From Mucor racemosus (taxonomy: Eukaryota; Mucoromycota; Mucoromycetes; Mucorales; Mucoraceae): a DNA stretch of 64,000 nucleotides. A program made the translations under genes and the position numbers. Shown here in pieces: positions 35,803 through 38,520 of this stretch (its first letter is position 1; every line of letters begins with the position of its first letter). Where the stretch lies: positions 248,001-312,000 of the forward strand of contig JAPEHQ010000014.1 in the NCBI GenBank assembly GCA_027405735.1, given 5' to 3'. The notes beneath the pieces were generated by a model, which was not told the DNA's origin, ran no database searches, and worked only from the letters and a program-made list of their open reading frames with translations.

Positions 35803-38520
35803 TTAAAGTTTATCGTAGTACTTGTCTAGACCGGGAATATCTTCAGTGAGACCTTTTCTCTTACGGATGTTACGGATGATATCGTAAACCTTGTTACCGA
35901 CTTCCATAGGGTTACCCGGCATGATTTGCCAATGATCAAAGACAGCTTGAGGGAAAGCTTGGCCACCAGTAGCAGCACGAAGGTCAGCAGTGAAACCGAA
36001 AGATTCATTAACGGGCAAGTACGCCTTGACAGCCATCATAGGAGTACCGGGCTTTTGTTCTTCAGAGAAGACTTGACCACGACGTCTGTTAAGACAAGAG
36101 TAAATACCACCAATAGCAGAATCGGGACATTGGATTTCGACAAGATAGATGGGCTCTTGGATACCGGGAGTAGCGGTAATAACGGAAGCGTAGACTACAC
36201 GACGACAAGTGGGGATAATTTGTCCACCACCACGATGAATGGCATCAGCGTGAAGAGTGACATCAAGTATGTTGAAACGACAACTACGGAGGTTCTCTTC
36301 AGCAATAGGACCTTCCTTGGTAGCCCATTGGAAAGCGGCAACACAAGAATCCTTGATTTCACTGAGATATTGAACTTGCTTGGTAACATCGACAATGACA
36401 TTAGCACCAGTACCGTCAGGACCGAAACACCAAATCTTACGAGCTTCAGTGACATCCCATTCGTACTTATCAGCGAGGATACGGGCACGAGCCTTGAAAT
36501 CATCCTTGGCAGTGATTTTACCAGCATCAATTTCATCAGCAAGGTCGCTGTTCAAAGGAAGAGCACGCATGTAGATACGGTTATGCTTATTAGGAGACTT
36601 GGAAAGACAATCAATGGTAGATTCGGCAGTGACAGTTTCACGGTATTGGACAACTGGGTCACCAGTCTTAAGAGGAACTTGAGCGTGATCTTCTTCGAGA
36701 TCCTTCAGACAAATTTCAAGATGGAGTTCACCAGCACCGGCAACAATGTGTTCACCAGAGTCAGAAGTGAAAGTAAGAACACAAGGATCAGACTTGGCGA
36801 GACGCTTAAGACCTTCAACAAGCTTGGGGAGATCGTTAGCGTTCTTGACATCGACAGCAACTCGAACAACAGGAGAGACAGAGAACTTCATGACCTTCAT
36901 GTTGTGAGCAATATCAGAGGTAGTGATGGTACCAGACTTGACCAAGAATTGATCAACACCAACAAGACCGATAATGTTACCAGCGGGACAATCCTCAATA
37001 GCTTCGACGTTACGACCCATCATGAGAACAGTACGTTGAATAGACTTGACAGCGAGATCAGTCTTGGAACCAGGAACATAGTTGGGACCTTGAATACGGA
37101 CCTTCATACCAGCACGGACGGTACCAGAGAAGACACGACCGAAAGCGTAGAAACGACCCTTATCAGAGGTGGGAACCATCTTGGAGACGTAAAGCATAAG
37201 GGGACCCTTAGGATCACAAGCACGGATACCGATAGCACATTCATCATCATTGGGACCTTCGTACAATTGGGCACAACGGTAAGCTTGAGAGGTAACGGGA
37301 GAGGGAAGATGGATACAGATCATTTCCAAAAGAGCATCACCAGCGGGCAAGAACTTACGCATAACGACCTTGAGGAGAGCCTTACCTTCCAAATCCTTCT
37401 CATCATTAGCGAGGGAAACTTCTAACTTTTCTAAAAGAACCTTGGTTTGATCCTTCTTGAAGTTCATGATAGAATCGAAAAGACGGTAGATGGGATCCAA
37501 AATGAACATGTTGAAAGCACGTTCGAGTTGGGCACCAGAAGCATCAGTGCTCTTGGTGGTCCACTTCTTGGTCTTGGGGTTGAAGTAGTTTTCACCCCAA
37601 AGCTTACCCATCATCTTGGACTTATCGACACCAAACTTCTTGGCATAACGGTTAGCAAATTGACGAAGAGTGAAGCCCCAACCGTGAAGACCGGAAGCGA
37701 ATGAAACGGTACCCTTTTCGGGGTAGACTTGACAATCACCAAGAGCTTCATCAACATAGGTGGAGATGATAACGTTAACGGATTCGATAGTACGAGCGAA
37801 AGAGTTGTAAAGTTCTTCTTTATCCAATTGGAGTTCAAGAAGAGCACGATCAACCTTGTTAAGACAGATAACAGGCTTAATACGTTCATTCAAAGCTTGA
37901 CGCAAGACAGTTTCGGTTTGGACACATACACCATCAATACAATCAACAACAACGAGAGCACCATCAGTAACACGAAGGGCAGCAGTAACTTCAGAAGAGA
38001 AATCAACGTGGCCAGGAGAATCGATCAAGTTAATCAAGAAAGCGGAACCGTCAGTCTTTTGAGCAATTTCCTTAAGACCCTCCTCATCTTCCATCTTGAA
38101 ATACATGGAAATAGCAGTAGACTTGATAGTAATACCACGTTCTTGTTCATCCTTACGGGTATCCATGAAACGGGCTTCACCAGCACGACCAGAAGAAATA
38201 ATACCAGCCTTGGAAACCAAGGAATCAGTCAAAGTAGACTTACCGTGATCGACGTGAGCAATAACAGACATGTTACGAACATTGGTAACCTTGTCCATCA
38301 AACCACGGATCTCTTCAATTGTGAAATTCTAAATGGATATTGTTAAACTTTTGAATTTTTCATACTTTTATGCATAATCTACTTACAACTAAACGTCGTT
38401 TAAATATACAGAAAAAAAGAGTATGAGTCAGTTAGTAATTCATAATTATCTGCAAACATCCATTATTTTTTTTGAATAGATGGATGGGTGCATATGTTAT
38501 ATATCATACAACATACCCAT
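35803..38520 (-). CDS. EFT1: Translation elongation factor 2 (eEF2)
   Basis: Main exon 38328-35803 plus two tiny 5' exons, 38520-38517 (ATGG) and probably 38388-38387 (TT), giving 843 residues with the family's MVNFT start. G1 motif AHVDHGKST lies at 26-34; switch and G3-G4 regions include IDSPGHVDF and LNKVDR. Domain IV has DVTLHADAIHRGGGQ, whose His near 700 is the diphthamide site and target of ADP-ribosylating toxins. eEF2 is the GTPase that moves tRNAs and mRNA through the ribosome. Codon use is strongly biased (GGT, GTC, AAG, CGT), as in highly expressed genes. The upstream region is pyrimidine-rich with a CACTCA microsatellite. EFT1 is the yeast symbol. Confidence 0.96.
38387..38388 (-). 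other. Putative 2-nt micro-exon of eEF2
   Basis: On the - strand the order is ATGG|GTATGT (38520-38511), a TACTAAC branch point near 38429, the first downstream AG at ACGTTTAG, then TT, then GTAAGTAG, and finally CATTTAG|AATTTCACA at 38328. Joining ATGG, TT and AATTTC gives ATG GTT AAT TTC, the conserved MVNF start. Leaving out TT gives a stop after five codons. Confidence 0.65.

Follow-up and report, generated by a model that had tools for sequence, protein, structure and literature searches.

The window, a 64,000-nt stretch of Mucor racemosus DNA (GCA_027405735.1, contig JAPEHQ010000014.1, 248,001 to 312,000 of the forward strand), was analysed together with the 53.2 Mb genome (54 contigs) to which it belongs. 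On the minus strand, at 38520-35803, it carries a gene for eEF2. In the protein database search the best-matching named protein among the matches listed is elongation factor 2 of Benjaminiella poitrasii, with 94% identity; the similarity to eEF2 extends over the full length, and the next matches listed are from Pilobolus, Rhizopus, and other Mucorales. Along the coding strand the order is ATGG, a 128-nt intron, TT, a 58-nt intron, and AATTTC, with a product that would begin MVNFTIEEIRG (Table 1). Exon 3 contains no intron, and its first two codons are the Asn-Phe of the conserved MVNF. The TAG just 5' of AATTTC would stop the frame, which calls for a splice acceptor at this point. The signals listed by the first-pass annotation were all found in place: the donor GTATGT adjoining ATGG, TACTAAC with a T-rich tract behind it and TTTAG as the first AG past it, TT followed at once by GTAAGT, and CATTTAG ahead of AATTTC. 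The two bases are thus bordered by AG and GT, and each of the two introns has a branch motif and an acceptor. Antisense to eEF2 runs a stop-free frame of 531 codons, probably a by-product of codon use.

Table 1. Features of the eEF2 gene in the window and of the second eEF2 copy
Feature	Position	Strand	Remark
Exon 1, coding part ATGG	38517..38520	-	start codon and first base of codon 2
Intron 1, 128 nt, GTATGT ... TTTAG	38389..38516	-	sequence reading
Predicted stem-loop, CATCCATC ... GATGGATG type	38452..38491	-	intron 1, between donor and branch motif; both copies
Branch motif TACTAAC of intron 1	38431..38437	-	sequence reading
Conserved 16-mer TTTAGTTGTAAGTAGA	38378..38393	-	acceptor, exon TT, and donor of intron 2
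Candidate 2-nt exon TT	38387..38388	-	bases 2 and 3 of codon 2 (Val GTT); same in second copy
Intron 2, 58 nt, GTAAGT ... TTTAAC ... CATTTAG	38329..38386	-	sequence reading
Exon 3, codon 3 to stop	35803..38328	-	one open frame, 841 codons and stop; stop codon 35805-35803
Antisense stop-free frame, 531 codons	35830..37425	+
Second eEF2 (G000:C16)	ATGG 247213-247210; TT 247054-247053; exon 3 246981 down to 244459	-	positions derived

The reading frame depends on the two bases. With TT included (junction ATGGTTAATTTC, spliced form ATGGTTAATTTCAC) the protein would start MVNFTIEEIRGLMDK, with MVNFTIEEIRG as its first residues, which agrees with the earlier translation of ATGG+TT+AATTTC as MVNF. 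With TT skipped (ATGGAATTTCAC) the frame closes after five codons, as had been claimed, giving MEFHN* in the window and MEFHY* in the second eEF2 copy described below. Retention of intron 2 leads to MVVSRLCIKV* in the window copy and to an early stop in both. The omission of TT therefore breaks the frame of a conserved protein in both copies, and the exon is required for a correct mRNA. An uninterrupted ATGGT, reported as missing from the upstream 400 bp, is indeed absent there, and neither copy has one within 1500 bases of AATTTC on the upstream side.

The second eEF2 copy and the conserved splice-site block

The protein search revealed two full-length eEF2 genes in the genome, while the remaining 20 of the 22 matches are partial and weaker. 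The second copy has the same layout, ATGG / 155 nt / TT / 71 nt / AATTTC, so the 2-nt exon is kept between homologous genes, here two copies within one genome. One scan each of a bacterial/archaeal and a viral sequence collection yielded no DNA of a relative's eEF2. Its donors are GTAATT and GTAAGT, in comparison with GTATGT and GTAAGT in the window, and AAAATGGGTA at exon 1 is common to both genes.

Aligned with blastn (window 35600-40000 against 7 kb around the second gene, E <= 1e-5), the coding parts are 96.2% identical over 2531 positions, and neither the flanks nor the introns give a match at this threshold. After codon 2 the copies differ at 96 of 2523 bases, which change 89 codons, 72 of them silently and 17 not. 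Comparison of 300 bases of flank on each side gives, for ungapped stretches of 30 bases, at best 20/30 on the 5' side and 21/30 on the 3' side, figures given without a shuffle baseline. Such similar coding parts beside dissimilar introns and flanks suggest gene conversion, or a strong selection on codons that is confined to the coding part.

Inside this otherwise unalignable region, TTTAGTTGTAAGTAGA is letter-identical in the two copies and falls exactly on the splice signals. In the 53.2 Mb it has exact matches at the two eEF2 sites only, and its reversed control has none. Chance was assessed by shuffling the stretch from ATGG to AATTTC with dinucleotides kept, the motif being required to keep a distance of 40 bases or more from both ends. 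YAG-TT-GTRAGT appeared in 3 of 5000 shuffles of the window copy, in none of 5000 of the second copy, and in both together in 0/5000; for the looser YAG-NN-GTRNGT the counts were 13, 5, and 0 per 5000, respectively. A common word of at least 16 bases was seen in 2 of 1000 shuffled pairs. A genome-wide search for CTAAC-N5-35-YAG-NN-GTAAGT returned 6 matches vs 38 in the reversed control, i.e. no enrichment, with a gap range that stops short of the eEF2 sites (39 and 43 bases). This result does not imply that 2-nt exons form a general class here.

Alternative gene models

Other ways of supplying a start codon were enumerated within 700 nt upstream. In the narrower enumeration (YAG acceptors, a middle exon of at most 60 nt, one or two introns) the window copy yields 138 models, and MVNF ranks first, level with a version of itself that is extended in frame from an ATG further upstream. 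The second copy yields 24, among which MVNF is third, with a score of 9.5 vs 10 for two one-intron models. The latter begin at an ATG within intron 1, use the GTAAGT donor after TT, and read ...INLVNFTI; in the window copy, stops interrupt their frame. The wider enumeration (any AG, a middle exon of at most 150 nt, at most two introns) gives 343 distinct N-termini for the window and 26 for the second copy, of which three are common to both: MVNF, MDNF, and MLNF. MLNF arises from structures that differ between the copies and has poor donors in the window copy. MVNF has the best donors of the three as well as the conserved N-terminus.

The MDNF model has its start codon within the stem-loop of intron 1 and needs a single intron, with ATGGAT (donor GTT...) joined to AATTTC to give MDNFTIEEIRG (spliced form ATGGATAATTTCAC). 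It can be built in both copies and scores highest among the one-intron models for the window (6.8), but its donors, GTTTGC and GTTGGT, are poor, no protein among the 120 best of 7992 relatives begins with MDNF, the identical TTTAGTTGTAAGTAGA block is left unexplained, and the upstream ATGGG would be encountered first if the mRNA starts 5' of it. We consider this model very unlikely.

Were the start codon supplied by an unrelated, more distant first exon or by starts specific to each copy, frame-compatible upstream ATGs would be available in each gene, and the two one-intron models that outscore MVNF in the second copy are of this kind. One such ATG of the window copy, in frame and 72 nt upstream, could lengthen the protein by 24 residues with TT still used. 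However, within 700 nt upstream the copies have only MVNF, MDNF, and MLNF in common, and no inspected copy-specific start equals a start among the best 120 of 7992 relatives, which makes an origin of this sort extremely unlikely.

Among the enumerated one- and two-intron models, only the 2-nt exon reading gives the conserved N-terminus in both copies, and the interpretation as a micro-exon, put forward in the first-pass annotation, is supported in this respect. Layout, conservation in the two copies, frame dependence, and splice-site consensus speak for the exon; against it stand the GTAATT at the start of intron 1 in the second copy, a weaker donor than GTATGT, and the unusual length of intron 1 described below. 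Judged from the sequence, the start of the window eEF2 is very probably assembled as ATGG, the 2-nt exon TT, and AATTTC, yielding MVNF.

N-termini of eEF2 in relatives

The relatives compared are the best 120 of 7992 proteins above threshold and are mostly fungal. MVNF opens 72 of these 120 proteins, and valine occupies position 2 in 75 of the 77 annotated with a full-length N-terminus, the two exceptions being MGNF in Halteromyces and MANF in Fennellomyces. On the earlier statement that MVNF is found in nearly all eukaryotes, these counts speak for a mostly fungal set of relatives. Eight of the same best 120 begin with MSVIAH.

A start lacking MVNF is found in 20 of 31 Mucorales rows vs 28 of the 89 other rows of the best 120 of 7992 (Fisher p 0.0025), a weak comparison since the rows represent clusters that differ in size, annotation varies by project, and the Mucorales rows were hand-picked by name. 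The order membership of eight genera was looked up, and we take Pilobolus, Phycomyces, Hesseltinella, Parasitella, Fennellomyces, Chlamydoabsidia, Dichotomocladium, and Cunninghamella to be Mucorales. The starts in place of MVNF in this order are MNFT, MGNFT, MPFPLQFNFT, MDRSCKENFT, a partial entry from NFT, and an inner Met. These annotations are as expected if gene callers missed the TT exon, and the indication is indirect.

Odd N-termini were also observed across Mucorales and Umbelopsis, reading MPFPLQF-, MG-, MDRSCKE-, MA-, and MVDRLLLI- (P0010, P0016, P0018, P0022, and P0026); they are possibly wrong first exons.

The inner Met (MDKVTNVRN...), as annotated in several Mucorales, could itself be the translation start, with everything upstream as 5' untranslated sequence. 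The first Met stands at this position in 20 of the best 120 of 7992 relatives by motif offset, and in P0008 and P0044 by eye. On the other hand, the upstream NFTIEEIRGL, from codon 3 to the inner Met, is identical at the protein level to that of Benjaminiella and Pilobolus, both annotated MVNFTIEEIRGLMDK, and the only differences between the two M. racemosus copies over this part are two silent third-position changes. The MV of 75 of the 77 full-N-terminus relatives (among the best 120 of 7992) is also against it, and the shortened starts resemble a failure to find the TT exon. A start at the inner Met is most improbable. If the 2-nt exon reading is true, it would explain the shortened or odd eEF2 N-termini of many Mucorales in databases and make a case for correcting gene models across the order.

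Introns and a predicted stem-loop

For comparison, the analysis covered 14 junctions in chaperonin and EF2-like genes of the same genome. The eight best-placed introns (a candidate within one residue of the expected protein spacing, score at least 5) measure 55-83 nt, and the top candidates at the other six junctions 56-122 nt. Intron 2 of eEF2 (58 nt in the window and 71 nt in the second copy) lies within the range of the eight, whereas intron 1 (128 and 155 nt) is longer, as is its branch-to-acceptor distance (43 nt in the window and 47 nt in the second copy).

The stem-loop predicted in intron 1 spans intron positions 26-65 in the window and 26-79 in the second copy, where it is longer, with pair probabilities from 0.67 to 1.0. 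Compared with shuffles, the fold of the whole intron has z -2.81 in the window (3 of 300 as stable) and z -4.64 in the second copy (0 of 300). Outside the stem-loop the distance from donor to branch motif is about 45 and 54 nt. In the fold predicted for the window, the donor is also paired to acceptor-proximal bases and the branch region to adjacent ones (probabilities 0.64-0.96), and the second-copy prediction pairs acceptor-region bases (probability up to 0.93), so that a helpful role of the stem-loop is uncertain.

Proposed order of splicing

Two bases hardly accommodate an acceptor complex plus a U1 donor complex. The two introns would have to be removed one after the other, since two spliceosomal complexes cannot be seated on splice sites separated by 2 nt. 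Each would be recognised as a whole, by intron definition, in keeping with the short introns at this locus. The steric limit on acceptor and donor complexes is discussed for a 1-nt exon in PMC4674806.

If intron 1 leaves first (predicted intermediate ATGGTTGTAAGTAG), the second step would act on ATGGTT|GTAAGT; if intron 2 leaves first (TTTAGTTAATTTC), the acceptor would face TTTAG|TTAATTTC. The stem-loop may bring the donor of intron 1 closer to the branch point. The order cannot be assumed, as the precedent of the 9-nt potato invertase exon shows, where the second intron is removed first (PMC4674806). In human cells, donors close to a newly formed junction are repressed by the exon-junction complex (PMC6224609); a similar behaviour in the fungus would speak against intron 1 being removed first.

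Inclusion of TT is presumably constitutive, as far as the frame tells. The earlier argument that it is constitutive because eEF2 is essential is slightly weakened, since the genome has two eEF2 genes, both of which nevertheless need the exon. More speculatively, the 2-nt exon could be ancient, order-wide in most Mucorales eEF2 genes, and kept through duplication, with obligatory two-step splicing, helped by the stem-loop, tying eEF2 expression to splicing fidelity, possibly as a control point; we regard this wider proposal as tentative and rather doubtful. If it holds order-wide, splicing failure would lead to a five-codon frame or an early stop. Natural exons of 1 or 2 nt test the lower exon size limit of the spliceosome, and an essential, probably highly transcribed gene is a good substrate for studying the order of intron removal.

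Comparison with known ultra-short exons

The usual size of microexons is given as 3-15 nt in PMC13149111, and a 2003 survey, as cited by PMC12940212, covered exons of 2-5 bases. A passage of PMC4462047 mentions a microexon as a read-mapping option. No report of a 2-nt exon in eEF2 was found in the titles and abstract beginnings listed from open-licence literature on 1-2-nt exons and on fungal or Mucor microexons.

The likeness to recursive splicing, drawn in the first-pass annotation, holds in that a donor adjoins an acceptor and removal would be stepwise (PMC6224609). It is loose, because in recursive splicing the stepping exon is removed again and is absent from the mature mRNA, whereas the two nucleotides of eEF2 must stay in the mRNA, judged through the frame, which without TT stops after five codons.

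The closest counterpart in plants is Arabidopsis APC11, whose 1-nt exon is likewise ultra-short and frame-essential, is spliced constitutively, and was missed by annotation (PMC4674806; PMC8831610). Its authors favour intron definition with stepwise removal, and an engineered TT in place of the single base was spliced in as TT in Arabidopsis and incorrectly in rice (PMC4674806). Unlike APC11, a single-copy plant cell-cycle gene, the eEF2 case would be a natural 2-nt exon, in a fungus, immediately behind the start codon. Where plant 1-nt exons are missed, shortened or altered N-termini result (PMC8831610). For VPS55 the loss amounts to 13 residues in Arabidopsis, similar to the 12 in inner-Met Mucorales eEF2, and the VPS55 donor is conserved as GTRAGT, like that of the TT exon; unlike the eEF2 exon, the VPS55 exon is 1 nt long, belongs to plants, and is alternatively included in some lineages (PMC8831610).

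The 1-nt exon of Fusarium CYP621A, described as the first for a fungal gene, resembles the present one in its fungal origin, in being deduced from frame and conservation, and in its conserved splice signals (PMC12940212). It differs in that CYP621A is a rarely expressed P450 with RNA reads across a 1-nt exon, while the candidate 2-nt exon described here belongs to an essential translation factor of a Mucorales-like fungus. Exons of 1 nt are thus already known with RNA support in plants and Fusarium; what would be new here is the length of 2 nt, the splitting of codon 2, and the occurrence in an essential, duplicated gene of a Mucorales-like fungus.
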